From Gordius sp. MW1 (lineage: Eukaryota > Nematomorpha > Gordioida > Gordea > Gordiidae): 64,000 nt of DNA. The notes beneath the pieces were generated by a model. It saw only the letters and a program-made list of their open reading frames with translations, searched no databases and had not been told where the DNA came from. Positions 6,132 to 49,816 of the stretch are shown one piece after another (the stretch's first letter is position 1; the number at the start of each line of letters is the position of its first letter). The stretch lies in assembly GCA_964036665.1 (NCBI GenBank), contig OZ038531.1:4030001-4094000 (forward strand), read 5' to 3'. The position numbers were made by a program, and so were the translations under genes.

Positions 6132-9100
6132 AACACTACCTACGACGGTACCAAGTCCGTGTGCAAAAAGTGGAGGGTTGGCGTCAGGTCGGAAACCGGC
6201 TATAAAAACCAACTCCAAAATTATGATAGTTTCAAACAAGATTTTACAAGAAAAGGCTAGGGCGTCCTCCACAAACGACGCTCACTGCATACCCCGCCCG
6301 TGCAATGTGAAAAATACACTAGGGTTACTGCTTAACTCACAACGAAGGTGGTTAAGGAAATTAGTTGTTGAAAGAATGCGAATAACGTGCTGGAATGTGG
6401 GAACTTTGACGAGGAAGAGCATCAAGGTCGCACAAATGCTAAAAAGAAGAAAGGTACACATCGCCTGCTTACAAGAGACGAGGTGGAACGGAACAAAAGC
6501 TAGGGAATTAGGAGAAGGATACAAGCTTTTTTACAGTGGGTCACCAAATCCTAGAAACGGGGTCGGTATCGTCTAAGCGAATCATTCAAAGACAAGGTGG
6601 TGGAAGTCAAGCGTTGTTCCGACAGGCTAATGTGGGTGAAGATTGCAGATCAAGGGGGCCTCCTAACCGTTATGTGCGCGTATGCTCCCCAAATTGGGTG
6701 TTCGGAATCAGATAAAGACATATTCTTCGATTCATGGGGAAAGGAACTACAAGGAATAGGACAGGAAGAAAGGCTAATAATTGGGGCAGATTTCAATGCT
6801 CACGTAGGGAAAGATCGTCTCGGGCATGAACGCAATCATGGAGGCTATGGGTATGGTCTGAAAAACAAAGAAGGGGAAAAACTTTTTTAATTATCCCAAG
6901 CATATGACATGGCGATCGTTAACACCTATTTTCAAAAACGCGAAGATCATATTGTGACCTAAAGAAGTGGGAAGCATTTTAGTTAAATTGACTATTGCTT
7001 ATACGGCGAAAGGACTTATGGAGTATAAAGGATTGTAAAGTAATACCGTGAGAAGAAATCGCCAGGCAACATCGTCCCCTTGTTATGGATCTTGACAGAA
7101 GAGTATTTCCCGAAAGAAGAAAGGTCTATGAACCTCGAATTCGATACGAATGGCTAAAGGATACGTCGACGAACGAAGAATACCATCAAAAAGCCTCCTC
7201 ACTCTTGGGAGCAAGTAAGTTGCAAAGGGACGTAGACGACGATTGGGAAACGCTATCTAAGGACATTAAGGGAACAGCGATTCGTGTTCTAGGACAGACC
7301 AAAGGAGGCAAAGCTATGAATAGGGAACTATGGTGGTGGGATCAAACGGTTAAAGATTTCATCGAAAGAAAGAAAAATCTATATAGACGGTGGCATAAAT
7401 CAAAAAAGTCGGAGGATTATCAAGAATATAGGGAAGAGGGCCGCAAAAAATGCCGTTGCAAAAGCGATAAATGTCGCGTACACCGAGATGGCAAACAAAC
7501 TGGTTCATAAAGGGGGCGATAGGCTTTTGGTCAAGATAAGGGACAAGAAAAGTCGCGATGTCGGAGTTCTTAAAATAGTCAAAAACGAGAAGGGTCAAAC
7601 CTTATTCAAGCGGAAAGAAGTGATGGAATGGTGGAAAGGATATTTTAAGAAACTTATGAATATTGCAAATGACAAGGATTCTCTTCCCAAAATTGAGCCA
7701 AATATAAGCATGGTCGAACTCTTTCAGGAGGATGAAGTTAGGACACAAATGAACAAGATGCAATAAGGAAAAGCAAATCGCCCAGATGGAATACCTATGG
7801 AAGCTTTGCTTGGATGTCGGAAGTCAGAGTCACCACCATGACGAACGTCCTTAACAAGATACTGGCAGAAGAGCGAATTCCTAATCAATGGAGAGCAAGC
7901 ACGATTATACCCTTATTTAAAGGCAAAGGAGACCCTCCGCACTGTGGCAATTACAAAGGGATCAAGCTAACTTGCGACTCCTCGAAGCTTATGGGAAGGA
8001 TCTTAGTAACAAGCCTGAAAAACGAGGTGGAAATATCGGCTAATCAATTCGGATTTGTGGCCGGCAAATCCACAATCGACCCAATCTTCGCCTTAAGACA
8101 AATGATGGATAAGTATGGTGAAAAGAGGAAAGACCTACATATGGTTTTTATCGACTTGGAGAAAGCTTATGACACGATCCCCCGCGATTTAATATGGTGG
8201 TGCCGGAAAAATCAAAATATCCCTGACGCATATATACGGCTTATGAAAAATATTTATGAAGCCTCAAACTCTTGCGTTAGGACGACAGTTGGAGACTCTA
8301 AACCTTTCCGGGTTAATATTGGATTACAGCAAGTCTCTGCTTTAAGTCCCTTTTTATTTAATATAATTATAGACACGATAACGAGGGACATTCAAAAGCC
8401 ATCGCCATGGTGTATGCTATATGCCGATAAAGTACTATGCTAGGAAACAAGGAAGAAATTATTCGATGAAGCCGAAAAGTGGTCAAAGCGCTTAGCTGGA
8501 TATGGTTTGACGGTCAACGATGGAAAACCGGTAAACATGGAAATGAACGTTACAGGCACCCCATCACTGGATGACCATCTACCCAAAAGTAGACAGATTT
8601 AGAGGGAGGTTGCGCAACGAAGTCAATGCCCGGATCCAAAAAGGATGGCTTAAATGGCGAATTATATCTGGTTTAATGTGCGACAAGAAGATGCCAATAT
8701 GGTTGAAGAGCACAGCTTTCAAATCCATCGTAAGACCGGTGTTACTATATGGAAGTGAAACATGGGCATTAAACACCACGGAAGGAAAGCTATTACAAGC
8801 CGCAGAGATGAGAATGATACGGTGGAGCTTGGGGTATACTAAGCTCGACCATATGACGAATGACTTTCTCATGACAAAAATGGGTATTCAACCTATGGCG
8901 GACATGATTAAAGAAAATCGGCTTAGGTGGTATGGGCATATACTAAGAAGGGACACGGATGACGTAAATCGAAAATTACTGGACGTGGAGGTACCAGGGA
9001 AGAGAGGAAAAGGACGACACCGTGTCACGTGGAAAGGGCAAGTCAATAAAGCTATGGAGATTAGTCAAGATATGGCACTCACTCCGTCAAGAGAAGAAAC

Positions 9101-9588: not shown

Positions 9589-12500
9589 CTAGCTGTGCCC
9601 GGCGAAGCGTTGCTTTGGCTTTGGCTAAATAATTGGTACTCATCAATAGGAAATATATGAAAAAATTTGGGTCAGCTGAAAGAGAGTTTCTGATGTAAAA
9701 GAATATTTTGTTATATTATGCAATTAAATATTAACTTAATAGGAAAAGGCATTTATTATTAATTATATAGATTTATAACAGTTTGTTACATATTAGGGAG
9801 CGATGTTTAGTGATAATATGCATAATTGGGTGACAAAAGTGTTTAAAAATCACTAATATGCAAAAGTCAATGATAATGCAGAAAAATATTTTAGTACAGC
9901 GGGTAGAGTAGTTTATTGTCATAGCTTAAAATCTACAGTAATAAAATGAAGAGATAGTAGAAAAGCACCTTCAAATTTGATTTAATGAAGTCTTTTACAA
10001 TCTATGCAAACCCCTGCTATCCGAGTGCCTTTTAAAGTCTCTTATTGGCGCTTCGCCAGAGGATCCAGCGCTTAGGAGCTTAGCTCCATGCTCAGGTCAC
10101 GAATGGCCCGGAGCTTTCCCAAGTAACCACGGTCTACTCTTAACCAACAACGATATCCGCATGGCTGTAGGCCTAAGATTAGGATAAAATATAGTTGATG
10201 AACAAATTTCTTTACTCTGCAATAATTCCCTAAAATTGAATGGCCATCGGCCTACACTGTAACGCAACAAATCCCGGTATCTATGACATACCGCGGTTAA
10301 CAAACTCATACATAACTGTTTTACGAAAGCTGGTATCCCCTCTATTCTTAAACCCACAGGCCTCTGTGAAGATAGCAACGAACCGATGCCCAAACTATAG
10401 GCGCTAGGGAAAAATTTTTAGCATGGGACTATACATGTACTGACGTATTTGTCCCATTTTATTAAAACAAAGATCCCCTGTCTTCAGCCGAGTCTCGGAA
10501 ATTTTCAATTACTCTGATTATAACAATACCATAATTTTTTGTCCCATTGCGACAACCACCCTAATAACCTTTGGCCCCAAGCCTTACAAATTATTAAGAA
10601 AATGGGAAAGAAATCTCTTTACTATTCAATGATAATCGCAAATAGTTTATAAGACAGAAAATCGGCATAATATCTATAAATTCAATTCATTAGTCATAGC
10701 GGAATGTTTTCAGATATTTACAATTCTTAACTTTTTTATTTATTTATCGTTTCTTCACAAAATTTGTTTTTTATAAAAAAAAAAATGATGAGTATATTTG
10801 GTGGAAATTAGAATTAACTGGAAATATTACAAATTTCTGCGAGTATAGCGAAAGCAAAAAGTTATATATGATAAAAAATTAGCAGCAGCAAAATCAGATC
10901 GTAAATGGCTTTTTGTTGCAGCGTTAGCTTTGGAACATTAGATCACACATAAGATAAAAGATCACGCCAGTTGTAACTTTGTTTACGGTGTAAGTCTACA
11001 TCAAGTAGAGCCGCAGATTTGGTGCAGGCATACCCAATTGAGTCAAAACTTTGTTTCAATTTTTAAGCCTATATCTTCAAGAAGAATTAATGTTTTTTGT
11101 AGTGTTTTAGCAATTGGTCTATGTTAATATTAGGATGTGCATAACTAATCCGATAAATGACATCTTCTGTCATGTCTGCCTCATATTTATTCCATAAATT
11201 GGTGGGGCCTGAGAGCAGGAGATCAATAAAACACGAATTTATTTTGAATGTAATTATAGCACCTTCATACCAATGATTATTATCCTCTAATAAATGCATG
11301 GCTTGGCATGCACTGCGGAAAGTGGAATGTGCAACGCCGTTGACCACTTTTAACGGCTGGAAACACGTTGGACCAGGGACGTCATGTTAACCCCGCGTTC
11401 ATGATGACGCGCGAAGCGAAAAAAAGCGAAATGAAGTTTTAAGCTAATTTATCAAATTTTTCATTTTTTTACTTAATATCTTATATTCATCGTGAATTTT
11501 ATCATATATCACGAAAATAACAATTGTAAATATGAGGTGTTCATTGTGAAACCGCAGACGATTATTTTCGTTTGCGGCAAAAAGCGAACGAAAAATAAGA
11601 TACAAATCATTTTTTACTTTTCGCGCAATGGTTAAAAAATTATTTTCGTTCGCTTTTTGCCGCGGGCGAAAATAATCGTCTGCGGTTTCGCTATGAACAC
11701 CTCATATTTACAATTGTTATTTTCGTGATATATGATAAAATTCACGATGAATATAAGATATTAAGAAAAATAATGAATAGTTTGATAAATTAGCACAAAA
11801 ATTCACTTCGCTTTTTTTCGCTTCGCGCGTCATCACGAACGCTGCCTAAGAGAGAAACATTCATCCTTTTGTTGATCTTCTTTAGTACAAATGAGATCCA
11901 TTGCCTATTGTGTTGCATACTAAGCCTCGAGGATATCGCTTTGAGCCTTTACCATATATCATGCATAGCGATTTCGGATTAAGTGTTCCCCAAAAGTCGT
12001 ATTCCATATTTTTCGTAACAATTTTGCAAAAATACTTATCTAGTTTAAGATCAGGTATTTCAGCACATATTACATCGTCGATTTAGTTTGGTGATCTAAT
12101 TATATAGCCATATGTGGGTTTGGTCATGCAGTAAACCTCTCTTTGCCATTCCACAGAGTACATCCACCAACGCACAGAGCCAAAGACCTTATGCTTAACA
12201 ATGAGATTAATCATTGATTTAAGTTTCTGGCAGAAAGCAGGTGCTGCGATGTTATGCCTATCGACTGGTGATTGGCCATAAAATAAAAGCTCATGGGCAT
12301 TGCGCCAGGCAGGATTGCATGTAAATGTAATGAATAGGTCCGGACGACCGTAGCTAGCAACATACGCAATCGAGTCTTGGACGTAATGCATATGATGTGG
12401 ACAAAATGATTTCTAACGTTAATTGTATTAGCGTCGTTAATGCATCTTGCAACTGAACATATTCTTCTGAGCGAAGTTTGGTCGGATTTAAACGGATATA

Positions 12501-13089: not shown

Positions 13090-13914
13090 TAAATATTAAT
13101 GAGTTTAAAAAATAATTACCAAATAAGGATACCGCGCAATCTGTTGAGAAATAATTTCATAAAAACGCTAGTCTCAACAGTTATCCGAATGTAGTGTCCG
13201 GTACCTTTTATTGTGAACATCTTAGTAAATATTCGCCTAAAAAGGTGTTATTAATTACAGATTTAGAACCTTAAATGTTAATCTACACCTATCATAGGCA
13301 TTAAATGCTGTCAAGTTAATAAGGGGAAAGAATTTTAAAGAGGAAATTCATGTTTTTTAAAGGCGGGTATTTATTATCGAGATAATTTGGGTTTTTAATT
13401 TAGTAAGACTTTAGGTCAACATAATGTATGGTGTTAAATTTTTTTAACATAAATTAGCTTTTTGTATTCTCATCTTCTTTACATTAGCCTCAATAGAATG
13501 TAAAATTTAAATTTGGCTGTACAAACTCACATGCAACTTTATGTATATAAATGTTCAATCAAATTGCAAAAAAATTTTTATGAAATTTATTTGATATTTG
13601 AAGAAATGAAAATCCCCTTAAAAATAAAATCTTGAACACGCCGCTAGCTTAATTGTTATAAGTTGAGTAAAAGTTCAAAGTCCGGTACCTTCTATTGTAT
13701 AAACAAAGTCTTACTTAATATCAGTTTACACTTTACAGATAGCTTAAATTATTATAGTTGACTACACGCATAGCACACATCGTGTTGATGATAATAACAA
13801 CTAGCTTGAATTCCCTAAGCATATATCTAAGGTTTATCAAGGGGGGAAAAATACACTAGTGGTGCACTGAATGTCTTTACAAGAAAAGGAGACTAAGAAA
13901 GTGTGTGGCTTTTT
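13090..13914. other. No recognisable feature
   Basis: AT-rich interval. A short phrase, GTCCGGTACCTT, occurs twice (about 13197 and 13680) in similar context, suggesting a very old repeat. No gene seen. Confidence 0.4.
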
Positions 13915-14460
13915 TTAGTCAAATTAGTCTCTAATTTAAAATGTGTCCTAGATGGCATATAAATTAGAGTTATTCTTATTTGATTCGCGGTTACCACCTG
14001 TCGTAAATCGGGCCCTCTTTATAAAAACCCGAACCGAAATCGCATTATAAATCTTTATTTTAACAAAATTCCATAACAAATATTATTTACGCCACAATTA
14101 CGGTGGGTTAATGAGTTTTATCCTTAAACACCGTAAACGTGAACTCAATCTAATTTGGCCTTATATATAGCTATCTCGATTACTATGTGACTAGAAAATT
14201 ATCTATGGCATACTGATGAGGTCCAATAAGAGCGAAAACGTTATATGTCTGTTTTCATTTTCAAGTCACATTCTAATAGAGATATGGATAATTTAGTCAA
14301 ATTAGTCTCTAATCTAAAACGTTTCCTAGATGGCATATAAATTAGAGTCATTCTTATTTATTCGCGGTTACCACCCGTCGTAAATTGGGCCCTCTTTACA
14401 AAACCCGAACCGGAATCGTATTATAAATCTTTATTTCAACAAAATTCCATAGCTTCTAAA
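13915..14460. repeat. Degenerate hAT family A fragments forming a 165-bp direct repeat
   Basis: The segment 13915-14080 (TTTAGTCAAATTAGTCTCTAA ... CCCGAACC ... AAATTCCATA) recurs at 14293-14457. The intervening stretch (ACGTTATATGTCTGT...CAAGTCACAT) matches the interior of the hAT family A copy at 25705-25790. These are therefore arms of old family A elements lying directly upstream of the putative CENP-C start. Confidence 0.6.
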
Positions 14461-14504
14461 GTACCTTACCGCATTTCTCATACAAAGCCATAAACAGCTG
14501 TTAA

Positions 14505-17500
14505 ATGTTTTTGCGGTACAATTTAAATTTAGATTCGTCGTCTGAGGAAGACAGAAGTAAATCCATTCAAAAGAACAAACGTCAAGACAAAAGAAAATTC
14601 TCACAAAGTAAATGCAATTATTTCAATAAACAAATTTTTATTAGCTTTTATTAAGGATAATATTTCTGATGCAAGAAATAAAAAAGTCATGTCAGCTAGC
14701 ATTAAAAATAGGTATGCTTCATATAAACGTATATGTTTCGAATGTTTGTTTAATTATATCTAATAATTGATAAATGGAATGCATACATGCTTTGGCTCAT
14801 AATCCTTTTTAATTTAGCAAATTAAAATCAAACTCAAAAAGTAGTTTGGATTTGACAAATGGGCAACAATCCTCTAAGCAGCAAAAATGTAAATTATATT
14901 TTTAGCTTTATAAGTTATGGAATTAGGTAATGGAAAACTTGATTTTGAAGGATCAAATATTAGTGACCATGATTATTTATATCAGAATATAAACAAATTT
15001 CCAAGTAAAAATTTAATAAGCGCAACATCTTTAATATTATATGTTTAAATTATCTATACGTATGTATAAATTTAATCAAGTTTCCGATGAAGATAGCCTG
15101 CGTACAAGAAATTCTATGATAGATCACAAAATAGATTCATTTTTGAATGCTATTGGATCCAACAGGTTTTTTTTGTTTTAAAGCTTATGCATATATACAT
15201 TTTTTTAATTATTAGCAACCATAAACAAATGAAAACACGTTCTAGTGAACAATTAATTAAAAAGATGGATATTGATCCATATACATTTAATTTATCTCAA
15301 TCTTTACCCAAAAATTTGTTGTCAAACAAAAAGACAAAGAAAAATAGCAATGAAATGAAAGTTGTAGAAGAAAAAAGAAACAGCATTAAAACCCATAAAC
15401 TTCAAATTTCTCCTAACAGCCTTAGTAATACTTTTGTAATAAATAAGTCATTTGTGAAGAGATGTTTAACCTTTTAAATTTTAACATTTTGTTTTATGAT
15501 CTATTTATTATTATGCCAAAAGTATATAATACTGTGTTTAAGAAATTTTAAGTAAATTTAATTAAAGGAATATTTTATAATCTTAGATGGTAAATCTAAG
15601 ATTAAGAGCCCAGAGAAGTTGCTGAAACAACCAACTAGAAAATCCACTAGGACCATTATTCCTCGAGTTTGTGTTAGAACAGGACTTATACCAATATATG
15701 GTCGGGATGAAATGGGTAACAACCATTTTTGCCCCTAAATTTTGTTTATATATAATTATTCACAAAAATGAAAGTTAATATATTTTTAAATATTAATATT
15801 TAAGATTAGAAATACGCTAAGTTAACATTGTGGCATAATTCCACTCCTATAAGTATTGTAATTGATAAAAGTTACACTTATTACTAATTTTGTAAAACTT
15901 TAAATGTATACTAATTTGAGGGGCAGTATTGAAATAATTTTCTAAATTTAACCCTACCACTTGACCATTGTTTAATTGTCACAATTACTGTTCATGTTAT
16001 AATCATTGACTAACAGTTCATTGGACTGGCGAACAGCCATCTTATTATGGCATTACAATATATTTCGTAACTTAATACGCTAATTAAATGAGAAGTTTTA
16101 TTGCAATCGTAAAGAAAATACATTATAGATGACGCTAGTGTTACTATTAGCGATAATAGCATTATAAAATTTTTGATTTTTAAATTGCATTATTATAAAA
16201 AACGACCGGATGTTATTTGGTCGACTTCCCTTTAGCCAACACCAACGGTCGACTCTGGTCGGTTTTTTCAAATTTCGACTCGGCCTAGAAGTCGACTAAA
16301 CATAAACTGGCCAAAAACCTTTCGTCAATTTATGTTTAGTCGACTAAAATTAAAGGTCGACCGAACAAAACCCAGCCGTTTTTACATCACTATTAAGTAG
16401 AGTTGTTAAATTGCTTACTTGCGCCAAAATCTAGACGCGAGCACGCACGCTGAGTTGCTTAATATGCGCGTTAGCACAATGTGTGCTCGCTGTTCGGCGC
16501 AGTAGGCAGAACAGTAGCATATAAAAATGCTCGAGGCCCGAGCAGGAACTCGAGCAGATGGTGGTAGCTGGAGTTGAAGCAATTTTTTGTTTGAATTTCA
16601 TCAAGTTTTCTCTTATTACGGGGATATAATAGGTAACAGGAAGTTCCTCGGGGTGAGTGATACCTACGCTGACCACATCAAACCGAACAAAATATCCACC
16701 TCGTTTCAAACATTTAAAGCAAATGGTAAATGCGTTTTTTGTTTTCTAAGTAAAAAATTTGAAATTTCTATCGGATAAGTTGCCTGCAATAAAATTTCTC
16801 TCCTTATTATAGCTAAAATATAAATTTGATAAAATACAGAGGGCCTTATGAAAGATATAGTGCCTCGGAGAAATAGTAAAGGAGCTAAGGGGAAGGCTAA
16901 GGAATTAAGAATAAATAAAAAGATTGTGTCTTCCCACCCAATTAAAGATCTTGCTGGAAATGATATATCTGACATAGTTGACGAAACCTACGACAACCAA
17001 ACATCGAGCCTAGCAATTGCACCCACTTCATTCAACGGCAAAAGTAATTTCGAATATCGATATTAGTGTTGTAAAAACGGCGGGGTTTTGTTTGGCCGAC
17101 CTTTAACTAGGACTAACGGTTGACTATGTAAGGTCTGTTTTTCACATTTCGGCTAAGCCGAATGGTCGACTCAGAAAAATAGACCAAAAAAGCGTTGGTT
17201 TATTTATGCTTAGTCGACTAAAACCAAAGGGCAACCAAGCAAAACCCTGCCGTTTTACACTAATTGATATATATGAACAACTGATTGAAAGTCGTATAAT
17301 TCATGAAATAATATTATATTGGCAAGTTGACCATTAAAATTTTATTCGTTCCCTTTCTTAATATGGACTTAAAATGTTTGCTTTTGGTGTATCAATGTTT
17401 AAAATATTAAAAGTATATGTGGTCATGGGCGTAGCCAGCATTGGAATTAGAGGGGGGTGGCAATAATGATTTAGGGAGGGGCAAAATGATTATTTTTTGA

Positions 17501-20500
17501 AATTTTAGCCATAATTTAAATAAATTTCAACAAATTTCTACGTCCATTTATGTGGTGTTATTTTAAAGGTATTAATTTGTTAATTTTAGAGGTGACAAAA
17601 TTTAAAAGAGGTCTCGTGCCCATTTTTATGGAAGGCAAGAAGGATTCCGTCGTTTACGAACGTAAGTTTGCTGTTAAAACTATCTTAATACTTTATGGGG
17701 TCAATATGACCCCAAATTACGCAGCTTTTTAAACATTTACTTTGTGATTCTGTTAGAGACCTGCTCTGGATATGTCGGGTCGTTTGGGTTGAAAATTTTT
17801 TAGGGTCGGATTTGGGTTGAAACAAAGTGACTGCAGTTTTCTAGATTCTATCCCGTTCTGTCAAATAATTATTATGGATAGAGAATTTAACGTTGAGGAA
17901 TAGGATGCTTTTAGTTTTTTCCCCTCAAAATCATCTCCAAATTTTGGGACCAATGAGGTTAAAGGTGTAAAAAATGGCCTTTTTAACGTTTTTTGCAGCT
18001 AAATTTCCGCACATTTTTAATTTAATCTCATTAATAGTTATATAATCCTATAGATCATTCATTAATTTATGGAGCTACAAAATTATTTTTTGTTTCACTT
18101 TTATATTTTTAAATTTATCGGGGTTAACCTCAACCATTTCCCCTCGTTAAAATTGCTCAGAGTAGTGTTGTAAAAAGGGCTGGGTTTTGTTTGGTCGACC
18201 CTTGGTTTTAGTCGACTAAGCGTAAACAGACCAATGGTTTTGACCAAAAAATCTTTAGTCTATGTTATGAGACTAAGTGAAGTAGATTAAAAAATATGGG
18301 AACCGGTCAAAAGAGCTCATCAGAACTCATCAGAAAAGGAGCACACTGCTCAGGATGAATTTAACAAATTGTCTTAGCACATAATATTTTATATTAACAT
18401 GTCCTAGTGATATCATAACAAGTAAATATATGGGTTAGGGTAAGTATTAGGGCCAGGGTAAGGGTTTGGGTTATAATAACAAAGTGTGCTCCTTTCCTGA
18501 TGTGCTCCTTTGACCCCCCACTCAAAAATATTTGCTCTGTTTCTGTTAAGTCGACTCTCCTAAGTGGGTTGACCAAACAAAACCCAGCCATTTTTACAAA
18601 ACTACCTCTCAGTATGTCTGGGCAATAGAATGTTTTTCTTGTCAACCTTTGTGTTATCGAAGAGTGATACTATCTTTAAGATGATTTTGTGGGTTTTTAT
18701 AAAATTTGCAATTATTTCAAATCGAGGTATTATCACAACCAAAATTCTATTAGAAATATGCGTTGGCTCGGTTTCGGGAATCAGTTTTGATTATAAACTC
18801 GTCACAACTTGATTTAAAAATCCTATATATAAAAATGAAACTATGTGTGTATGTATGTATGCCGCCACCAATTTTGGAAAACTACCAGACCGATTTGGCT
18901 CAAAATTTCACAGTTTATTCCTGACACTCCGTAGCATGTTTTAAGATTTGTTCGAGCCATATCGGTCCAGTAGTTTTCGAGTATTCGTACGCGTTGCACT
19001 GTATATACGTAAATAGAACATATAGACATCAAACTTTGTTTTTACTTCAATAACCGCTTTATCATCATATATGCCCTAAAATTCCAACATACCCGGGTAA
19101 ATGACAAAACAACGTTTGCCGGGTTCATCTAGTATGTAATAAAATGATTAGCTTATGCTCTCACTTTTGGGCGCAGGTTTTTAATATATAAGTAAAAATT
19201 TATATATCTAACCACATTCATTTGTTTTGCATCTTGGGGGCTGTATTTGTTAAAACATAATATTAATATCTATTTGTAAGTTTAACTCCTCTTTCACATC
19301 ACGTTATAAAGTAATGTCTCACTAAGCTTAACTCATTTCAAATAACTAATAAATTTATTATAGAAGCCTTAACATTAAATATAATGTTGCAAGGATTATA
19401 TGAACAAGATTTTTTATAAAAATAAACGTATTTTTAGCATGTGGCTATATTGAATTTTGCGAATTTTTGAGGAATAACTTTATAGAGAGACACATACATG
19501 TCCAAAATATTAAGGGTGACGTTGAACAAATTAAATTTTTAAAACATGTGTGTGTTGCATTGTAAAAATTCTTTTTGATGCTCAGGCATTCATTTTAATA
19601 ACTAGCAATCAAGTCCAAAAAATTTCATGGAAGATCCCTTTTTTGAACACACTCAAAAAATAAAGTTTTGAAATTAATAATAAAGAACTTAATTAAATCA
19701 AGGGTTTTCTAATGAAGCACATTTACGAAACAAGGCTGCTGCCAAATAAATATAGAAGCAACTTCTTCTTTTATTAAACACCTTACATAGTGTGTTAGTG
19801 GTGGGAAGGGAAAGTCAAATTGTCAAAGGAGGTTGCAATAAAATATTTGTTGAATTCTTATTGATCAGGCCTGAGTGGAACTCTATATTAAAACTTTGGT
19901 TAGCACTCTGCCTGCAGTTTAGGTGGGGTCATGATGACCCCAAGCCGTTTAAAAATGTTGTACAAAGCAAGTTAGCGATTTTTATGGTTTTATTATTGCA
20001 GTAGCTTAATAAAATTTATCCGAGTAAGTCTTTGCAAAATTTGGCTTATTTTTAACAAACAGTTTTTAAGATTCAGAGTGTTTTAAGATGCCTGGGGTTT
20101 TCTAAGACCCTACCTTCTACAATAATGAAACAAGTAAAAAATTTCAACATTTTTAAATATATTATTAAAACTTATTATTCAATTTATTTATAAATAAATT
20201 TTTTATACACATCTCCTTTCATCTGAGATATTTAAACTTAGATTTTAGTATGTTTATTTTTACTCGTAGTATTTTAAAGTGCTTATTTGCTTAAATTTTT
20301 CTGCGCACATTCATATTTTAACATGTCTAACTTATAAACTTCTATATCTTCTCATTTGCCTGAAGATGGTATATAAATATAACAAAATTATACCAAGTGG
20401 TTCCAAATAAACATTAAAAATTAGTATGAGGAATTTTTGCTTTATAGATAATTTTTTAAAGCTAAGGAATTTAATAGATAAAAAATCAAAAATAATGTTA

Positions 20501-23500
20501 CTAATGTCTGTATGAAGTAAATTTATTACAACTTTCTTCTTAATTTTAAAACAAATCAAATTTGATTATAATAAATGTGTAGGAAATGTCTTTTTTTACA
20601 CAAAATTTACTAAGCCCCATATAATGTCTGTTTTAAGATATTACAAGTAGATTTTTTTCATATTCTCAAATCTAACCTATAATGTATTTCTATTAACACT
20701 CCGTAGGTTAAGTGGGGTCATAAGGACCCCAAGCGGTTTGTAAATGTTGTACAAAATAAGTTAGGTTATAATTTCATTGTTACAGTAGCTTAATAAAATT
20801 TATCCTAGAATATCTCTGCAAAATTTGGCTTGTTTTTATCTAATAGTTTTAAAGATACAGCGTGTTTTAGATGCCCGGGGTTTTCCAGGACCACCTTCCA
20901 CAATATGAAAAAAAAATCTCAATTTTTTTTTTGAAATTTTTATCATAAATCATTATTTTTAACCTATCTGTAAAGAAATTTTTAGACATTTCCTTTTATT
21001 TGAGATATCTAACTTTTAAACTCAGATTTTAACATGTTAATTTTTCCTCATGGTATTTAAAAGTGCTCGTTTGCGTAAATTTTCCTGTGTATTTTGATAT
21101 CTTAACATGTCTAACATTAATAGGTGCTATATATTTGATATTTTTTGTCTGAAGATGGTATATAAATATAAAAAATACAATTTTATCAAGTGGTCCCAAA
21201 TAAATAAACATTAAAAATTAGTTTGAGGAGTTTATACTTTATAGTTAATATTAAAATAGCTTAGGATTTAATAGACTAAAAAATCATATTAATAAACCTA
21301 TATATTATAAGGTAACTGAATTAAAACTTTCTTGATAATTTAAAACAAATTAAATTTGATATTAAATGTGTAGAAAGCCTCATTTTTTACAAAATTGACT
21401 GTTTTTATAGCCTTATATGATGTATGTTGTAAGATATTACATGAAGATTACTTTCATATTCTCAAATTCAACCTTACATGATGTATTTCTATTGTAAAAA
21501 AACTTAAACTAAGTTGAACAATAACAATAGAAAAATTTCTGTCTCAAAAAAAAGTCAAAACTTCCTTAAGTTTGGACAACTCTATTTTTTTGTTTTGATG
21601 TTTTTTTATGCCAAATTTACAAAAACCAGGAGCTTATATTACCATTGTTTAATTATAAACTGACTATTTGAAACTTTACATTTTCAATCTAAAAAATTTA
21701 AACTTTAGACTAAGAAAACTTGTAGGAAATCTTATTTTTTACACAAAGTGTACTATTTTTAGAGCCTCATATTTGTTATAAGATTTTATTAAAATTTTTT
21801 CCCTATTCTTAATTCTAACCTTCTATAATGTATTTCTATTAAAAAAAATAAGTTGAAGTTCAAAAATTAGAAAAATAATGGCTAAGAACAATAGTAACTT
21901 TTTTACTTTAAAAAACACAGGGCCAAAAATTCCCTAATTTTGGACATCTTTTTTTTTTGTTTTTAGGGTTTTTTATGCCATATTTTCTATAATTATAGTT
22001 CCAACCTTATTTTATATGATCTTATAAATTAAATTATAAAATTAGGGGAGAAAAATTGTTATAAATAAATAAAGTCACATAGGGGGAAATTTTGGGGGTC
22101 CCACTATTTGTAATTATAAAATTATAACCACTTGTTCAAATACCTAAAGTAATATATCAATTTACAGATAAGAGTTGTAGTATTATGCTTTTAAAAGTTT
22201 TATAATACAACAAAGTTATAGCTATTTGCCATCATGACCCCCTTTACCATCCGTGTTAGGATTTTGACCTGACCAACGGAGGGTTAAAAAAATTTAAAAA
22301 TTATTTTTAAAATGGATTAAGAATGATAGAAACTTTTCTGTCACAAAAAAATAAAGAGTCAATCCTTAAGTTTGGACAGCCCCATTTTTTTAATTTGGCC
22401 AAATTTTACATTTATAGTTCCAACCTTATTTTATAAAGAAGTTATTTTTGTTATGAGCCATATTAGTCACATAGGGGAGAATATTGGGGGTCGTACTAAT
22501 TGTGGATATAAAATTATAACCACTTGATCAAATTACCACAATAGTATATTAATTTACTGATAAAAGTTAAAGTATTATGCTTTCAAAATTTGAAAAGTGT
22601 ACATTATAATACAACCAAGTTATAGCTACTTAAAGTTTGGGATCATCATGAGCCCCTTTACCATCAGTGTTAAAATTTTTTCCTGACCAATGGAAGGTAA
22701 AAAAATGAATTAGATTAACAAAGGATGTGTAAATTGATTTTATACTATTACAAACATATTTTCTCACAAACAAACTCTACACATATATTAGGACAAACCT
22801 ATAAAGAAAATTATTTAATTATGTTGTTTTTTTATGATATAAATTCATTTATTAGATATATTTTTATAAAACACAAATTTTGTGAAGATGAGAATGTTAC
22901 TTCTTTTTTGTCCAACTTGTACATAGACTGTGTCCACTACGCTAAAGACAACAAAAATTCCCTAGGCCCCAACAGAATAACTACTTCCATAAATGATCCC
23001 TTCACCTTAAACAACATTTTTGATACCACAAAGTATGTGGTAGGAGAAATTAGGTTAAGATCTATGCAAACAAAACCTCCAGTCATTTCCCAAAGTCACG
23101 TAGTAAGAATTTATTTTACTTCACATCCAGAGAATAAATTTTTATAAATGTATGTAGTATGTATGTTTAAGATAATTAACTTTAAGGTCTAAGTGACAAA
23201 AAGTTACGCCACAAAATTAACAAAAATGAAATAATTAATTTGAAAGATTTATATACATACATGTTATAAAACTTTTTTATTGCTATACGTATAAAAACAT
23301 TTGACAGATACTATCCATTACTAAAGGCCATGTTATATTGGCAATCAATGACAATCCTACTATAGTTGAGAAAGGAGATGTAATCAAAATTCCCCTCGGT
23401 AATTATTATCTTAATAATTCAATTAATTTAAATTCAGGCAACAAGTATGCGATACAAAATCTCAAAAAAACAGAAGCCCACCTACTATACACACTTATTA

Positions 23501-23505
23501 TATAA
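14505..23505 (+). CDS. CENPC: Putative CENP-C (Mif2/HCP-4) centromere protein, 12 exons, 479 aa
   Basis: CENP-C binds CENP-A nucleosomes and organises the inner kinetochore. Proposed exons: 14505-14607, 14645-14711, 14818-14888, 14927-15004, 15081-15165, 15216-15424, 15587-15715, 16606-16725, 16840-17043, 22888-23102, 23308-23398 and 23438-23505. Every junction has GT/AG and keeps frame, and an in-frame TAA precedes the ATG. The C-terminus (about residues 400-479) reads as the CENP-C cupin: VVGEIRL, ITKGHVILAIND, GDVIKIPLGNKYAIQNL, then a short end. Upstream, HPIKDLAGNDISDIVDETYD resembles the conserved stretch before the cupin. RKSTRT..P with Y and GR (residues 222-244) looks like a degenerate CENP-C motif. 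The N-terminal 200 residues are Lys/Ser-rich and unrecognised. The cupin exons are the firm part. The splice to 22888 across a 5.8-kb TE-filled intron, and exons 8-9, are less certain. A stop at 15738 would end a separate 254-aa protein if exon 7 were not spliced. An AATAAA lies at 23615. Confidence 0.68.
16196..16391. mobile_element. CGGCTGGG-type palindromic MITE (TA family), in CENP-C intron
   Basis: Fold-back element with GGTCGAC and AGTCGACTAAA subterminal repeats, ending CAAAACCCAGCCGTTTTTAC. The left terminus is eroded. Confidence 0.75.
17066..17260. mobile_element. CGGCTGGG-type palindromic MITE (TA family)
   Basis: Begins GTGTTGTAAAAACGGC and ends GCCGTTTTACAC, flanked by TA on both sides (17064-17065 and 17261-17262). 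It starts only 22 nt after the proposed donor of CENP-C exon 9. Confidence 0.85.
17424..17553. mobile_element. GGGCGTAGCC-type MITE
   Basis: Starts CATGGGCGTAGCCAGC, continues with TTGGAATTAGAGGGGGG and AATGATTTAGGGAGGGGC, and fades at a degraded right end (ACGTCCATTTATG). Confidence 0.7.
17865..18160. repeat. Dispersed repeat also present at 27150-27430
   Basis: Shares TAGAGAATTT, TTTTTAGTTTTTTCCCCT..., GAGGTT..AAGGTG..AAAAATG.CC, and CATTAATTT..G with 27150-27430 over about 280 bp. The upstream 17757-17845 carries GGGTCG..TTGGGTTGAAA, a fragment of a hAT family A arm. No coding seen. Confidence 0.6.
18165..18602. mobile_element. TA-family MITE interrupted by a second TIR element
   Basis: Outer termini are GTGTTGTAAAAAG...GGGTTTTGTTTGGTCGAC and GTTGACCAAACAAAACCCAG...TTTTTACAAAAC. 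The interior at about 18310-18525 is a different element with inverted ends CATCAGAAAAGGAGCACAC and GTGTGCTCCTTTCCTGATG. Its interior contains a GGGTTAGGG-like run. Confidence 0.75.
18821..19132 (+). mobile_element. Short non-autonomous Helitron-type element, 312 bp
   Basis: Starts TCCTATATATAAAAATG and ends CATCTAG, placed precisely between host A (18820) and host T (19133), as Helitrons require. The 5' block reading ...AACTACCAGACCGATTTGGCT is typical of Helitron 5' ends in invertebrates. The end contains TTTGCCGGGTTCATCTAG. No coding. Confidence 0.8.
19900..22697. mobile_element. piggyBac-type non-autonomous element, outer copy, split
   Basis: The left arm (19900-20696, from TTAGCACTCTGCCTGCAG, then GTGGGGTCATGATGACCCC) and right arm (22284-22697, ending GACCAATGGAAGGTAA) belong to one element whose interior TTAA site received a second copy. 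The sequence flanking the insertion (GTATTTCTATTAA | TTAAAAAAATTT) matches the uninterrupted equivalent inside the inner copy near 21485. No transposase is visible. Confidence 0.8.
20697..22283. mobile_element. piggyBac-type non-autonomous element, inner copy, TTAA-flanked
   Basis: Flanked by TTAA at 20693-20696 and 22284-22287. The left end reads CACTCCGTAGGTTAAGTGGG and the right end, on the complement, CCCTCCGTTGGTCAGG. Subterminal GGGGTCATAAGGACCCC is an inverted motif also present in the outer copy. The 1.59-kb interior is AT-rich and non-coding. Confidence 0.85.
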
Positions 23506-23961: not shown

Positions 23962-24595
23962 TTACTTTTTAGTTTTTTTATAACTTTCCAAATTATTTAA
24001 ATAGTTTGCTTTCTTATGAAGTTTGTGGCAATTATGATCAAAGGGTAATCTGTGAGTTATACAAAATTTCTTGTAACAGTCATTACAAGAGAAAGGAATA
24101 AGTTCAATCTGCTTGCATTTGATGAATGAACATTTGTTTGAACCCTAAATTTGATTTAACAATAATGAAACTATGTTAAATACATTCAATTGTCGCAATT
24201 TTTTATCAGACACTATTGCAACATCTGAAAGGCAATTGTTTTCAATGTGACGGTTTATAATATAGTCAAAAGAAGAAGAACCCATAGGTACCAAAATAGG
24301 TTGATCACATATTGGGCAACTTGGAACTTTGTTATCCTCATTTAATATAATATATAGTCATTTTGCAATTACTTTGATATAGGCTTCAGGGCATTGATGA
24401 TTTGTATATGTATAATGCTCTTTGCTAAATAATTTATATTACAAAAAACTACAAATTTTACCAATATATTTGATTACAAGCATCACATTTAAATGGTAAA
24501 AAGTCTATTAAAATTATATCACTGCAGTAAAATATCAAACCTAATTGATTACAGGACGAATAATTACAATTCTCGCCAAGAGTGTGAAATTCCAT
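23962..24595 (-). CDS. ZFAND2: AN1-type zinc finger protein, ZFAND2-like, 5 exons, 161 aa
   Basis: ZFAND2/AIRAP-type proteins act with the proteasome and p97 in protein quality control. Exons on the minus strand: 24541-24595, 24462-24504, 24373-24424, 24184-24336 and 23962-24144. Introns are 36, 37, 36 and 39 nt. The protein starts MEFHTLGENC. AN1 finger 1 has all ligands: C-x4-C, then QLDFLPFKCDAC, C-x2-H, H-x-C. Next comes a CPICDQPI segment and a YIINRHIENNC stretch like the family's 'VVGDHIDRDC' region. AN1 finger 2 is also complete (C-x4-C...FSCNDCYKKFC-x2-H...FDHNC). It ends in a Lys-rich tail without the ubiquitin-interacting motifs of ZFAND2B. Intron 1 is a multiple of three and stopless, so unspliced reading adds 12 false residues. 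Total coding length is 486 nt, in frame at every junction. Confidence 0.9.
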
Positions 24596-28415: not shown

Positions 28416-29863
28416 TTAAGATTTTATATCTGGAATATCAACAGGATCTTTATAGATTCCCCATATTGGAATTGTTCCTGAATTTTCTTGATATATCATA
28501 TATAAGAAAGGTTTATCAGCTATAAACGCCTTAGCTAAAGATTTAGTTTTGACAATCTTGGATAAACTTGAACGATGTACTGTCTCTTCACTACCTTCTT
28601 CTCCAAGTTTGAAAACTATCTTCTGCAAAACATTCGGCATTTCAACCGACTTATTTGATACTATGTGAGTAAACCTTTGGCTAAAATGTGATTAATTATA
28701 ATTAGCACTTTAAAAATTATAATGTAAGAATGTAAAAGTTAAATTATTAATTATAACTTGTTTTACTCTTTAAGGCATGCGAATTTTGGTCCGAGCAGTA
28801 ATTCATTTTTAGTCATAGTCTGTTTGATGTGGATTCTGGGCATTGTTACATTTAGTGTAGACATTGTTCCCGAGCTTGTTAAAGTGACTATGAAGTCATT
28901 TAGTTTGCTTGATATTAATGCCTCAACAGTTTTCAATGAAATGTCGGCGTTCGGTAATATGATTGCCATTTTAAAATCGTTCAATTTAAAATTTTTAATT
29001 ATGATGCGCGATTGAAACTCTTTAGCATCTATATCTTTAACTTCGAATATTCCGCTCATCATCGTTATGTGTTTTTTGTATCTGCTGTTCATCTTAAAAC
29101 TACGATAACTCGTATGTCTGTGTTAGGCAAAAATAAAAATAATTAAAAAAAAGTCTAATTTTTTGCAAAAATTAAAATATTTTGTATGACCTTACCTTCG
29201 GTCAAAGACATCTGCCCAAAGAGCATTCCAATACAATATGTTTGTGTGAAGCAATTGTGTTGTGGGATTGAGATTTTGGGGGTAGATAGTTGTGGTAAGA
29301 AGTTTTTTGGTGTCACTCTTAATCTGAGTATCGATCTTTTTCCGCGTTTCGGGTAACTTTGTAAAATTCATTTTAACGCACTGATATTTTAAAAGGTTTG
29401 ATATATCGCTGTAAGTCGAGCTAATCTCAAGGGAAGGATGGTGGAAGAAATAATTAAGATTATAAAGTATCATGCCGTTGTATGGTTCATTTAGGTTTTG
29501 AAAGGTGTCCAAATAATCTTTCAAAGTCTCCAACACCATCGTCAATCTTTTCAAACTTATCGCCTTTTTTAGTTCGGTGGATTCATCGTGGTCGGGATTA
29601 ATGAGATTGACTAAGTCTGGATAGCAAGTGTGCTCAGTTTGGAGATCCATTAACATTGAGGTTAGTAGGACTTGTAACTGTACAGGTGATACTAACCTGT
29701 TCCTAGGCATGCCCCGGTCAGAATTAGCTAATCTTGCATCCATATCGAGAGCTAACCTTAATTGATAACTCATTAAGGTATTAAGGTCATGCGAAGGTCT
29801 AATTACTAAATTAAACCCTGGCGCATAGAACGAGAATAGAATTATAAATACAAAAATCGGCAT
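28416..29863 (-). CDS. Secreted serpin, 3 exons, 427 aa, probably non-inhibitory
   Basis: Exons on the minus strand are 29196-29863, 28767-29117 and 28416-28680, with introns of 78 and 86 nt. All junctions are GT/AG and the 1284-nt model is in frame. A hydrophobic N-terminus (MPIFVFIILFSFYAPG) is a likely signal peptide. Serpin landmarks in order are RLVSPVQLQVLL near residue 55, NGMILYNLNYFF, KKIDTQIK, the strand region LHTNILYWNALW, FKMAIILPNADIS, VTMPRIHI, and the C-terminal FIADKPFLYMIYQENSGTIP (residues 392-411). The reactive-loop hinge is EEGSEETVH (367-375): the GSE at P15-P13 is usual, but P12-P9 are E-T-V-H instead of small residues. Inhibitory serpins need alanine-like residues there for loop insertion, so I infer a substrate-like or non-inhibitory role. 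The scissile bond is probably near I382-K384. Confidence 0.9.
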
Positions 29864-30447
29864 ACAAAAATGAAATTATGATAAAAACTGAAAATAACTT
29901 TCAATTTATTTACCCATTGCTTCCAAGCAAACATTGCCGTAATCAAATAATTTATCCAGATTCCGGTAATATAAGGTAATCAAGCCAAACATAATATATG
30001 ACGCGATACAAATATGTCTATTTACTTAAGTCCGATAGACCGTTAATGATTGAAAGAGACAACGTCAATTCTTGTTTACCTTACTGCACACGTCATTTAA
30101 CTAGTTCAAGTGTATACATATGAAGGGCGTAATTTAGGGAAAGTGGTGCATGCGTTATCGAATTGAACAAATATTGGAATCGGATTAGGGTTAAGATCGA
30201 GTTTTTCGCACGACCCTGCCAAGTATATTTTAAATTTTTTTAATAAATTGTTCAAAAATAGCAGTCAAAGTAAATTAATGAATTAATGCTGTTAGATTTA
30301 ACGAGATTCTCGTTCTAATATTTACTTTTTGGCGATTTGAAAGCAACGGGTATGGGTTAAAATTTTTAGTCCGGTCGGGTTAATTTCAAGAAAATCGATT
30401 TAAAAGGCCTTATGTTTGTATCCTATCAATGTTCGTCGCTGCACCGA
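29864..30447. other. Serpin upstream region
   Basis: Probable promoter and 5' UTR of the minus-strand serpin. A stretch at about 30180-30400 (CGAGTTTTTCGCACGACCCTGCC ... CCGGTCGGGTTAATTTC) resembles an eroded family A hAT element. No other feature. Confidence 0.45.
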
Positions 30448-39112: not shown

Positions 39113-42100
39113 ATGCCAATCTCAGCCAATAATATCTCATCCAATAATACTTCGCACTCAGTCATGAATGGAGTCTCTTCTAATTCATTTTCTTTGAGGG
39201 AAAAACCTTGTGATGTTGGAATATTGGCCTTGGAAATATATTTTCCACGCTTGTGTGTCGATCAAGTTGACCTAGAAAAGTTTGACAATGTATCTGCAGG
39301 TAATGGAAGACATAAATTACTGATAAAAATTTTAGGAAAATATACCGTTGGCTTGGGACAAGAGAAAATGGCTTATGGAGCCGACTGTGAAGATGTATAC
39401 TCTTTTTGTCTTACAGTTGTACAGAGGTTGATAGAAAAATCTGGTTGTAATTATGCAAACATTGGGCACCTTGAAGTAGGCACCGAAACAATATTAGATA
39501 AATCTAAAAGGTACTTATAAATAATATGCCATTATTGTCTTTCTATTTTATTTAAAATAGCATAAAGTCAGTATTGATGCAATTGTTTGAAGAGAGTGGT
39601 AATTTTGATGTTGAGGGAGTAGACAATATAAATGCTTGTTATGGTGGAACTGCAGCTCTCTTTAGTTCAATTAATTGGATCAATTCTGATTCTTGGGATG
39701 GTAATAAATTATTAGTTTTACCATCATTTTTTTGTTAGGTCGTATGGCATTAGTTGTAGCAAGTGATATAGCTGTTTATGCTGAAGGACCAGCTAGACCT
39801 ACTGGTGGTGCTGGGTCCATTGCTATGCTCATAGGACCAAATGCTCCGCTTGTTCTTGAAAATGGTAATTTGCATTGTTTACAATGTTTTATAATATTTT
39901 TAGGTTAGCTGTAAGTTTTTTTTATGAATTTTAATAAGTTATAACAAAATTTATTATAAATATTGTTTAGCTAAATATTGTTAGTAAATGATACAATTAT
40001 AATATTTTTATTTTATGATTTCTGAATTAATGTACAATAACAATAATGCTTGATACTTGAATAGATAGTAAAGCATCATACGCAAGACACGTCTATGATT
40101 TTTACAAACCAAATTTGATCTCGGAGTATCCTGAAGTAGATGGAAAATTATCCATTCAATGTTACCTTCAATCTTTAGACCACTGTTATCTTTCTTACTT
40201 GAAAAAATTTGAACAATCTCACAAACTACAAAAGGGTATATGTCATTTAAATTCTTAACATTGTCATTTTTATACGCCCTAGTTTGTTTTGACTTTAATA
40301 TCACATTTTTAAATTGAGCAAATTTTACAATACCTATTGTGTCACATTGATTTTGGTATTATGGATTTGAGCTTAAATAAACCCTAATTAATTTATAATG
40401 AGCAAAGAAATAGTTTTCACATAAATTCTTGTCTCCTGTGGTGTCCCAAACTTAACCCAACCAACTACCAATATATAAAAATGATTAAATAAGTCCTATT
40501 CAAGATAAATCAATTAAATATATTTCTACACCATACATATATAATAATTTTAATTAAAATTGCAAATTTCATTTTAGTACTTATATATATCCATAGTAGC
40601 TAATAAAATTTTAAAAATATAGCGAGTAAAAATATTAAAAAGCTCTTAAACTGTTTATTAAAATTTACATGTTCACAAAGTTAGATTAATATGTCAAAGT
40701 TGAATAAGTTCAAGTAAGAGAAATTTGATTCTTTATTCGACCAAATGTTGGGCCAAATAAAAGGCATTTAGGGTTGGGCTAGGTCCAATAAATTTATTTT
40801 GCAGGGCTCTAGGTGTTTGACCTGATTATTAATTGTTATCATTAAAATTGTCATAATCAATTTTATCTGACTAAATGAAAATAGTGTAGAGATGAAACAT
40901 ATTTTGGCATATATATATATATATATATATTACACGATGATCTTCAGCTCAAAACTACAAAGATGGCCCCTGTTTGAACCTCTTCGATTACGTGTGCTTC
41001 CATTCCCCCTACTGCAAACTCGTCGAAAAATCCTATGCCCGTCTCAATTATTTGGATCAAGTGAATTCTAACCTTCACGGTAATGTCACTGAAACTCAAA
41101 ATACCTCTGCTGCCCTGCTCAAACACAAGTACTAAAATACATTTGGACAGGCATTTTATAAAATAATCAAATAAAGTGTTTTTCTCGTTGGGGAGTAATT
41201 AAGATTAAGGAATTAATTTATAAAACTTTGATAAAAATATTCATAGTAATAGCGCCATCTAGTTGTTATTTAATTTTCGTTCAACTATTTCACGAAGTAA
41301 AATTTATAACCACGCTTCTTCAATAGATTTTCTCCACGTTTTAGTGTAGGTAGAGTTACTTGGCTCATTTTGTTTACTTTTCGAATAACAATAATTGAGT
41401 GTCTATTTCAAAATGGCGGTTAGAGTTTTAAACCTATAAAATTTTGGAACAGGCTTAAAAGGCCGGCTGATACGTACTTCGACCGCGAGTTGGAGCAAGA
41501 TTACATGAAATATGCTCGAACCGGGTTCGAGAGCAAAGTTTTGCCCACCCTGAGCCTGGCCAAACAAATTGGAAACATGTACACCCCCTCCCTGTACGGC
41601 TGTCTCATCTCCCTACTCCTAAGGTAACTTATATATAAGTGATATCATCTATGCAACACACTTAGCGTATAAAATTAAGTTGACGACGGATTACGAAATT
41701 TCAGGATTTACGAGCTCCGTTTTTTTAATTTTGCTTACGGGGGTGGGGTACTCTTATATTTCTCACTTGTTGAATGTAGTGTTTTAAAAACGGCTGGGTT
41801 TTGTTTGGTCGACTAAACATCGACAGACCAAAAGTTTTTTGGTCTCAAAGATTTTTAGGTAAAAGTTTTGGTCTCTGTTGATGTTTAGTCGACTAAAACC
41901 AAACGTCGACCAAGCAAAGCCTACCCAGCCGTTTTGACAACATTAGTTTGATGGCTATCTTTTATTACGTTTAAAACTTACAGGGGGCGCGCTTAAGGTT
42001 TTAGTTAATTGCAAACTCGATATATATAAAAATTTGTAATAGTTTGTAGTAATGACAGGGTTTAAAAAGAGATGCCAAAGGCGGAGGAAGTAAGATTGTA

Positions 42101-44130
42101 AACTAAAAATAGGGGTTTTAGAGAGAGAATTTAATAGCTAAAATTATTTACTGACAATATTTTGAAAACACTTTTGTTGTTAACGAGCGGTGGATAAAAA
42201 AAAGTAGGAGGAATTGGTTTCATGCAATAAAATAAAAATTAAATATTATGCATTTCATTTTTCCCCACTCATTTTCTCAAATCCAACTAGTGTTTTAAAA
42301 ACAGCTGGGTTTGGTTTGGTGTTTTAGTCACACACAGCCATTGTTAAAGCACTAATTCAACCTCATCATTTGCTACCAACAAACATGTCTCTAAAAGCAG
42401 TATCTGCTATTCTAACTGATAGTCTCTATTTTTATGTTGTTCGAAGTAATTATTTCCCTGCCGTTTTTGTCGATGAAATACTTTGGAAATGTTTTAACTA
42501 AATGAATTTATTCTTTCATTTATTCCTTTCGTCTTCAAAAAATACGTACTTTTTAAAGATAATAAATGATTAGTATACTTCTATTATTGCAGACTATCTC
42601 AAAACGAGTCTGGCGGCACCACCACCTTGCTGGGCAGAAGGATAGCCATGTTTTCATACGGTTCCGGCTGCATAGCTACTTTCTACTCCTTCCTAATTCC
42701 CGCCCACGCCGTCCTAGCCCTGGAAACGCTATGTAAGGGCTTGCAAGACATCCCCATACGCTTAGCTAGCACCGACCCTAAATCTCCTTGGTGCCGAAGG
42801 GTTGTTGAACCAGCCGAGTTTGCTCGTACACTCAAGGAGCGCGAAGAAAATCACCTAAAAGGTTTGTTTACAATTATTTTAAGTTTATACTAGTTTAGAA
42901 AAGTTTAAATCTTGAAAGATTTTTTTATGGGGGGGGGGGGGGGGGGGAGTGTGATGGGTATGGGTGTAGCCACCCTTCTTCCACAAATTTATTGAAGATT
43001 ATTAAAATTATGGCTAAAATTTAAAAAAATGATCGTTTTGCCCCTCCCTTTATCATTATTGCCCCTCCTCTAATTCCAATCTGGCTACGCTTATGGTGAT
43101 GGGTATGGTAAATTCGATAATGGACAGGCAATTTTTCATTATGCCTTGTAAGAGCCATAGATTGCTTTTTTTCTCAATCAATTTGTTTGAAAATCTTTTA
43201 GTAGTTTTAAAAATACGAATGGAAGCAACTGATCAAAGCAAGGACTAGAAATTGTTTTTTCTCAGCGGATTTGTTTGAAAATCTTTTAGTTTTAAAAATA
43301 TAATTGGAAGAAACTCATCAAAACAAACTTCAAGCTCTGGGACCAAATACTTGATAAGGAAGAAGAAGGTGATATAAGGGGTTAAGATTATATATGAATT
43401 TTGAACATCGTATCCCACATGAAAGAGGTCTTTTATATTATGTACGGGCTTGTCTTAATAATGGATTCAGATTCAAATGCCACGAAATTGATAAATATAT
43501 CAAAGTATATTAATTTATCTTTGTCTAAATATTCGTTTCAATGAGTCAAACTTGGTTGTAATATTAATAAAAAACGTTTTTTTGTTTATTTCAACTCTTG
43601 AGATTAAATCCAAACTTTGCTGATACCTAAAAATTTAAAAACATACAACATTTAAGCTTAGGAAAAAGTTTTCATCTTACAAAATTGCTGTTATGTTAGG
43701 CGTCTCTATGTAAATATGTTTTTGCTGCGCAGTAAAACCCGATACTAAGACAAGGCCTAAGATAAGTTTGAAACAGTTAAATATTTAAACACTAAACAAA
43801 CATATGCAAAAATTTGAAGCAGCCCTGAGTTTGATGATATATTTTTAGTCGGCATATTTCTAACTTTTTTTGAAATGTATTATGGCATTTCGTGATTTAT
43901 ATCGTAAAAGTAGTAATATAATTCACCTTTTATATAATATATAGCCGCGAGATCTTGATGTTTTTATAAATTTCAGTTAAATAATTTAATTTTTATATCT
44001 AGTTTTTTCATTACATTTGATAGCTCCTTGTAAGCCAACTTTCTTAGATGAAGATTTGTATCCCGGAACCTTTTACCTAACTTGTATGGACGAAAAGTAC
44101 AGAAGATTTTATCAGCGCAAGGCTCTGTAG
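39113..44130 (+). CDS. HMGCS1: Hydroxymethylglutaryl-CoA synthase, 9 exons, 508 aa
   Basis: Condenses acetyl-CoA with acetoacetyl-CoA to HMG-CoA, the mevalonate-pathway entry step. Exons: 39113-39299, 39336-39510, 39561-39700, 39739-39864, 40065-40235, 40948-41128, 41453-41623, 42593-42861 and 44024-44130. All are GT/AG and in frame, with length close to animal HMGCS. The thiolase-fold active site is intact: E113 in [14 protein letters not shown]147 in NACYGGTAA and H285 in FHSPYCKLV. Also seen are [72 protein letters not shown] and the terminal [14 protein letters not shown]. The first 36-nt intron (39300-39335) is stopless and in phase, so unspliced reading inserts 12 residues after A62. 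The Ser/Asn-rich N-terminus has no evident mitochondrial presequence, so a cytosolic form is likely. Exons 6-8 are visibly richer in G/C-ending codons than exons 1-5. Confidence 0.95.
41779..41943. mobile_element. TA-family CGGCTGGG MITE in HMGCS intron 7
   Basis: GTTTTAAAAACGGCTGGGTT start and AGCCGTTTTGACAACAT end, TA-flanked. A second partial left end lies at 42290-42330 in the same intron. Confidence 0.8.
42960..43096. mobile_element. GGGCGTAGCC-type MITE in HMGCS intron 8
   Basis: Starts GGGTGTAGCC, passes through ATTATGGCTAAAATTT and TTTTGCCCCTCCC, and ends CTGGCTACGCTTATG. A 19-base G run at about 42928-42946 sits just before it. Confidence 0.75.
43305..43372 (+). mobile_element. RTE-like LINE 3'-end scrap
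   Basis: CATCAAAACAAAC..., GGGACCAAATACTTGATAA and GGAAGAAGAAGG match the last 60 bp of the 6132-9155 LINE. It is an extreme 5' truncation. Confidence 0.65.
43446..43757. mobile_element. PIF/Harbinger-derived MITE in HMGCS intron 8
   Basis: Left end GGGCTTGTCTTAATAATGGA; right end, on the complement, GGCCTTGTCTTAGTATCGGG. These ends match the termini of the Harbinger remnant at 30448-32096, so that family probably mobilised it. Confidence 0.7.

Positions 44131-47830: not shown

Positions 47831-49816
<1,986 letters not shown>

Follow-up and report, generated by a model that had tools for sequence, protein, structure and literature searches.

Does the window, a stretch of 64,000 nucleotides from the hairworm Gordius sp. 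MW1, encode the kinetochore protein CENP-C, which links chromosomes to the division apparatus, and do all the exons proposed for it belong to one transcript? Rebuilt exactly from the window, the gene model contains 1440 nt in 12 exons and yields 479 residues with zero internal stops. The preliminary description had listed 12 canonical junctions in a stop-free model of this length: exons, length and GT-AG borders were reproduced, whereas the junctions number 11, with phases agreeing at each. Introns range from 37 to 890 nt, except for intron 9 (5844 nt). The G+C content is 0.24-0.40 in exons and 0.13-0.25 in introns, apart from intron 7 (0.34) and intron 9 (0.29). The components of the model are as follows.

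14505-14607, plus strand: exon 1, with a putative start ATG and an in-frame TAA directly upstream; codon score weakly positive
14645-14711, plus strand: exon 2, preceded by a 37-nt GT-AG intron; codon score slightly negative
14818-14888, plus strand: exon 3; codon score negative
14927-15004, plus strand: exon 4, with a 38-nt intron upstream; codon score slightly negative
15081-15165, plus strand: exon 5, based on the rebuilt model and codon score
15216-15424, plus strand: exon 6; codon score slightly negative
15587-15715, plus strand: exon 7, containing RKSTRTIIPRVCVRTGLIPIY, which resembles the CENP-C motif at a level not above chance
15716-16605, plus strand: intron 7, carrying a repeat copy (16264-16382) present also in intron 9
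16606-16725, plus strand: exon 8, based on the rebuilt model and codon usage
16840-17043, plus strand: exon 9, with the strongest codon signal
17044-22887, plus strand: intron 9, repeat-rich
22888-23102, plus strand: exon 10, pre-cupin region and first cupin strands, matched by Pfam CENP-C_C and by CENP-C in the PDB
23308-23398, plus strand: exon 11, cupin, matched by Pfam CENP-C_C and in the PDB
23399-23437, plus strand: intron 11, 39 nt, stop-free and in frame, adding 13 residues if retained
23438-23505, plus strand: exon 12, cupin end and stop codon, matched by Pfam CENP-C_C and in the PDB

Some borders have in-phase alternatives: two other AG acceptors lie upstream of exon 4, within the 38-nt intron, and a donor at 15464 is likewise in phase for exon 6. 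The introns of 37, 38 and 39 nt are not odd for this genome, because the CenH3 candidate described below has an intron of 34 nt and the HMG-CoA synthase gene one of 36 nt.

The identity of the gene is given by its C-terminal cupin, which is divided among three exons, with GDVIKIPLGNKYAIQNL spanning exons 11 and 12. Against Pfam CENP-C_C (PF11699, cut-off 29 bits), the exact 479-residue model scores 36.6 bits (E 5.6e-9), with residues 394-476 aligned to profile positions 1-84 of 85, and the cupin part alone 39.8 bits (E 5.6e-10), well beyond what chance would give; the hallmark of the family, a C-terminal CENP-C-type cupin, is present. A PDB search with a hand-joined protein, a few residues off the model, returned 12 distinct sequences under E 1. 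The best were CENP-C 7xhn (E 1.9e-4), Cnp3 6o2d (E 1.2e-3) and the cupin plu4264 (E 3.7e-3), followed by CENP-C 7x85, CENP-C 7by0 and Mif2 2vpv; CENP-C, Cnp3 or Mif2 thus make up five of the best six of the 12 rows, and the weaker six include non-CENP-C proteins, e.g., fibronectin and EccB3. With the spliced protein above the PF11699 cut-off and CENP-C chains among the top PDB matches, the CENP-C/Mif2 cupin originally proposed for this locus is confirmed. When the joined cupin was compared with the 211.8-Mb genome, three places were found up to E 10, every one an exon of this gene. The gene is therefore very likely a nematomorph CENP-C (Mif2/HCP-4-type), apparently in a single copy. We judge it to be an ordinary, expected orthologue of an already known family from a little-studied phylum.

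The gene had been called invisible to ORF scanning. This holds for profile searches, as a six-frame PF11699 search of the whole genome at E 0.001 missed it, but not for all of its coding parts: exon 10 is contained in a 140-aa ORF of the program-made list, and exons 11 and 12, read through the 39-nt intron that separates them, make up a single open 66-aa frame. A six-frame profile search can miss a gene built of short exons, so absence calls in such genomes need spliced searches. The further suggestion that a hidden copy matters for claims of CENP-C loss found no counterpart, since no such claim for the phylum was met in the open-licence literature; that literature yielded nothing on centromeres in Nematomorpha nor, for the kinetochore, anything on this gene.

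The closure of the model without stops, initially considered unlikely by chance, proved to be a poor argument for the gene. In 60 Markov sequences of the same dinucleotide make-up (up to 12 exons, stops arising across junctions ignored), chains of 1440 nt or more could be closed in 60/60 under free GT-AG choice, in 33/60 with GTA donors, exons of at least 65 nt and introns of at least 37 nt, and in 29/60 with GTA[AT] donors. The stop-free chain was dropped as support, as chance alone gives such chains. The longest chain in the real stretch exceeds the simulated maximum in all three settings (2511 vs 2214 for free GT-AG, 2343 vs 2034 for GTA and 2205 vs 1950 for GTA[AT]), which is a mild sign of real coding.

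Codon usage offers a more direct view of exons 1-9. The training set comprised 4713 codons, taken from 21 of 30 protein-kinase stretches of the same genome (the 9 with internal stops were excluded; 5 of the 21 fall in one long frame), with non-exonic sequence of the same region as background. Three nulls were applied: local non-exonic, antisense and Markov sequence. In this order, P was 0.0001, 0.0008 and 0.0000 for exons 1-9 and 0.0000, 0.0007 and 0.0000 for exons 7-9; exons 1-6 are weak (0.034, 0.069 and 0.0002), with individual scores below zero in exons 2, 3, 4 and 6. The test is blunt, because the certain cupin exons (0.10, 0.14 and 0.0007) do no better than exons 1-6. With another background, the intron-9 and reversed-window nulls single out exon 5 (P 0.001 against 788 intron-9 segments, 0.076 against reversed-window segments) and exon 9 (P 0.000 against 46 and 0.015 against 471 such segments, respectively). 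By codon usage, exons 1-9 look coding, 7-9 clearly and 1-6 weakly. Their translation gives nothing over the cut-off in Pfam (EBP50_C reaches 16.3 bits where 25 are needed), and no Pfam match was obtained at the model N-terminus for the region that binds the Mis12 complex, which is poorly conserved in the CENP-C family.

The second element expected of the family, the CENP-C motif by which these proteins usually hold the nucleosome, was searched with the pattern R-R/K-S/T-x-R ... P-x-x-Y-W and with a profile built from four PDB sequences (7xhn, 7by0, 4x23 and 6qld, which we take to be human, chicken, rat and budding yeast, respectively). The best 21-mer of the model scores 10.5, and when residues 1-355 were shuffled 5000 times, 1665 of the shuffles scored at least as high; a motif interrupted by an intron would escape this profile. 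The strict pattern is absent from the six unspliced frames of 13500-23200. Among four patterns, the strict one and one looser version have 0 matches, another has one (minus strand, 14418) and the loosest has seven; all eight looser-pattern matches lie outside the model, whose 479 residues include no tryptophan. Several candidates were rejected. In exon 7, RKSTRTIIPRVCVRTGLIPIY was considered as the start of a Mif2 motif, with RKSTR identical; it scores 7.0 and was discarded as evidence because two other 21-mers of the model outrank it and the top score itself is so often reached by shuffles. The alternative exon 7 donor at 15671 yields ...PRVFF..., with the motif absent. The top six-frame 21-mer of 13500-23100 (14.5, at 16995) is exon 9 run into the intron, without arginines or Y-W. 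A match to the loosest pattern, ARGPSRNSSRWW, precedes a stop at 16532 (plus strand) in intron 7, and its frame meets a stop when spliced to exon 8. The profile check recommended for the spliced protein thus succeeded for the cupin, with CENP-C_C over its cut-off, and gave nothing convincing for the CENP-C motif, with the best match at the shuffle level. So the motif is lost or diverged, or the model misses the exon that carries it or the junction that it spans.

Other kinetochore components were sought in the genome. An H3 search gave seven matches, two of which (contig C5, minus strand, 23668010-23668126 and 23668300-23668380) represent two exons of a single divergent H3 on the same contig as the CENP-C gene:

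C5:23668004-23668407, minus strand: CenH3 candidate, with histone-fold introns of 34 and 67 nt

Its joined reading is NIRKK...LVREIANELKIGGDFYRWQITALAALQEASEAF...MPKDLNLVRFIRSED, and it scores 82.8 bits against Pfam Histone (with one extra valine at the junction in the query). In an alignment by eye, the loop-1 region is three residues longer than in H3, and a WQ pair is present; we take the longer loop 1 and the WQ pair in this divergent H3 to be CenH3 traits. An upstream exon for the N-terminal tail is likely. The protein ends with FIRSED, one residue short of H3, and the hydrophobic C-terminal tail is absent unless a further exon follows. In human, CENP-C is reported to read the hydrophobic C-terminal tail of CenH3 (PMC7475651). 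The joint absence of the CenH3 tail and the CENP-C motif is suggestive only. That hairworms re-wired the contact between the two proteins, keeping the cupin and losing both the aromatic CENP-C motif and the hydrophobic CenH3 tail, is a tentative and rather doubtful idea. The genome also contains an Ndc80-like exon (Ndc80_HEC, 27.8 bits, cut-off 25.1, profile positions 80-145 of 147). A search for SANTA (KNL-2) gave no match, yet its own controls were equally silent. Another H3-like copy (C5:17052475-17052869, minus strand), about 80% identical and with stops and a frame break, is probably a histone H3 pseudogene.

Two alternatives concern the nature of the cupin. It might belong to a non-kinetochore protein that came to resemble CENP-C by convergence, given that third place in the PDB goes to plu4264 (E 0.0037), a cupin of bacterial type, and that Cupin_2 also scores, below its cut-off. 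However, CENP-C_C is over its cut-off along nearly the whole profile, two CENP-C-family chains score above every other cupin in the PDB, and the genome carries a CenH3 candidate as well as an Ndc80-like exon; convergence is very improbable. Nor is a decayed copy, with the working CENP-C located elsewhere, at all credible: it would fit the failure to find a canonical CENP-C motif in the model, but the reading frames are intact across 12 exons, and the genome search, which divergent or finely split copies could escape, found no second copy.

The remaining alternative divides the locus in two: exons 1-9 would form a gene unrelated to the cupin, and exons 10-12 a short cupin gene starting near 22725 or further upstream. 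Such a division would leave the cupin as CENP-C, so in identity it overlaps the best explanation. The length of intron 9, far outside the range of the others, the ATG at 22725 in the ORF holding exon 10, and the lack of a Pfam match over cut-off in exons 1-9 speak for it. On the other hand, the phase is kept at the junction of exons 9 and 10, and intron 9 is filled with repeats, one of which has a copy in the shorter intron 7 (16264-16382, paired with 17138-17256). The codon signal of exons 7-9 and the architecture of known CENP-C proteins, a long, weakly conserved chain ending in the cupin, also argue against two genes, which we consider unlikely. Exons 1-9 and 10-12 probably form one transcript across a 5.8-kb, repeat-swollen intron.

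As a single CENP-C gene, the locus can be compared with CENP-C/Mif2/Cnp3. Common features are the C-terminal cupin, aligned over positions 1-84 of 85 of PF11699 and placed after a long K/S/N-rich region, the one copy found and the CenH3 candidate in the genome. The hairworm model differs in that a canonical CENP-C motif was not found and in having several tiny introns and one repeat-swollen intron. By analogy with known CENP-C, the cupin would make the protein a dimer, and the N-terminal part, basic and of low complexity, would make contact with CenH3 chromatin and bring in the outer kinetochore. Dimer formation, a position at the centromere and the recruiting role are here inferred from the family.

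HCP-4 of nematodes, the sister phylum, belongs by name to the same family. In Caenorhabditis elegans, one study places the CENP-C motif of HCP-4 at the C-terminus (PMC9577544), in contrast to the hairworm protein, which ends in the cupin and in which the motif was not found. A review names CENP-C as the sole linker in Drosophila melanogaster and C. elegans (PMC9252888), and no statement on a nematode CENP-C cupin was found in the sections available from PMC5371998 and PMC7729030. If HCP-4 also lacks the cupin, then under the doubtful re-wiring idea each sister phylum would have retained a different half of the protein, and this would bear on the origin of nematode holocentricity. With CENP-C and a CenH3 candidate now recorded in Nematomorpha, the CENP-C-CenH3 pathway could be traced through the base of the nematode lineage, holocentric worms included.

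The neighbourhood of the gene is varied. A repeat occurs in two copies (13914-14075 and 14292-14451), about 377 nt apart, the second stopping 53 nt short of the exon 1 start codon; the promoter may lie in this repeat. Further upstream lie a reverse transcriptase (7742-8440, plus strand), of non-LTR type by reading, and a Helitron-like segment (12086-12412, minus strand). Just downstream, on the opposite strand, is a ZFAND2-like zinc finger exon (24148-24357, minus strand), followed by a serpin gene split into three or more parts (28419-29875, minus strand), an HMG-CoA synthase gene (39113-39517 and 42570-42890, plus strand; its 36-nt first intron is open in frame) and a homeobox gene (48949-49816, plus strand), NK1-like by reading, with an interrupted homeodomain. 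Rfam gave 0 matches at gathering scores in the whole window.

The assembly also includes mitochondrial DNA (contig C12, 14,798 bases), with genes read in invertebrate code 5. Inverted repeats within its genes have arms of 108, 95, 107, 98 and 81 nt with 99-100% complementarity, in nad1, atp6, nad6, an unassigned frame and nad2, respectively, and shorter ones occur in nad5; these gene names are our own assignments, presumed from the translations. The signature of Nematomorpha, long inverted repeats in mitochondrial protein genes, nad1, atp6 and nad5 among them, is present in this contig. Coding palindromes have been published for the phylum, the repeats in atp6, nad1 and nad5 being common to all four species studied (PMC6649704). 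Judged by these repeats, the source of the DNA is almost certainly a hairworm. Many COX1-like stretches are also found in nuclear contigs (e.g., C8:2829490-2830827), one of them scoring 408.2 bits vs 410.5 for the mitochondrial gene; they look like recent nuclear copies of mitochondrial DNA or assembly joins.
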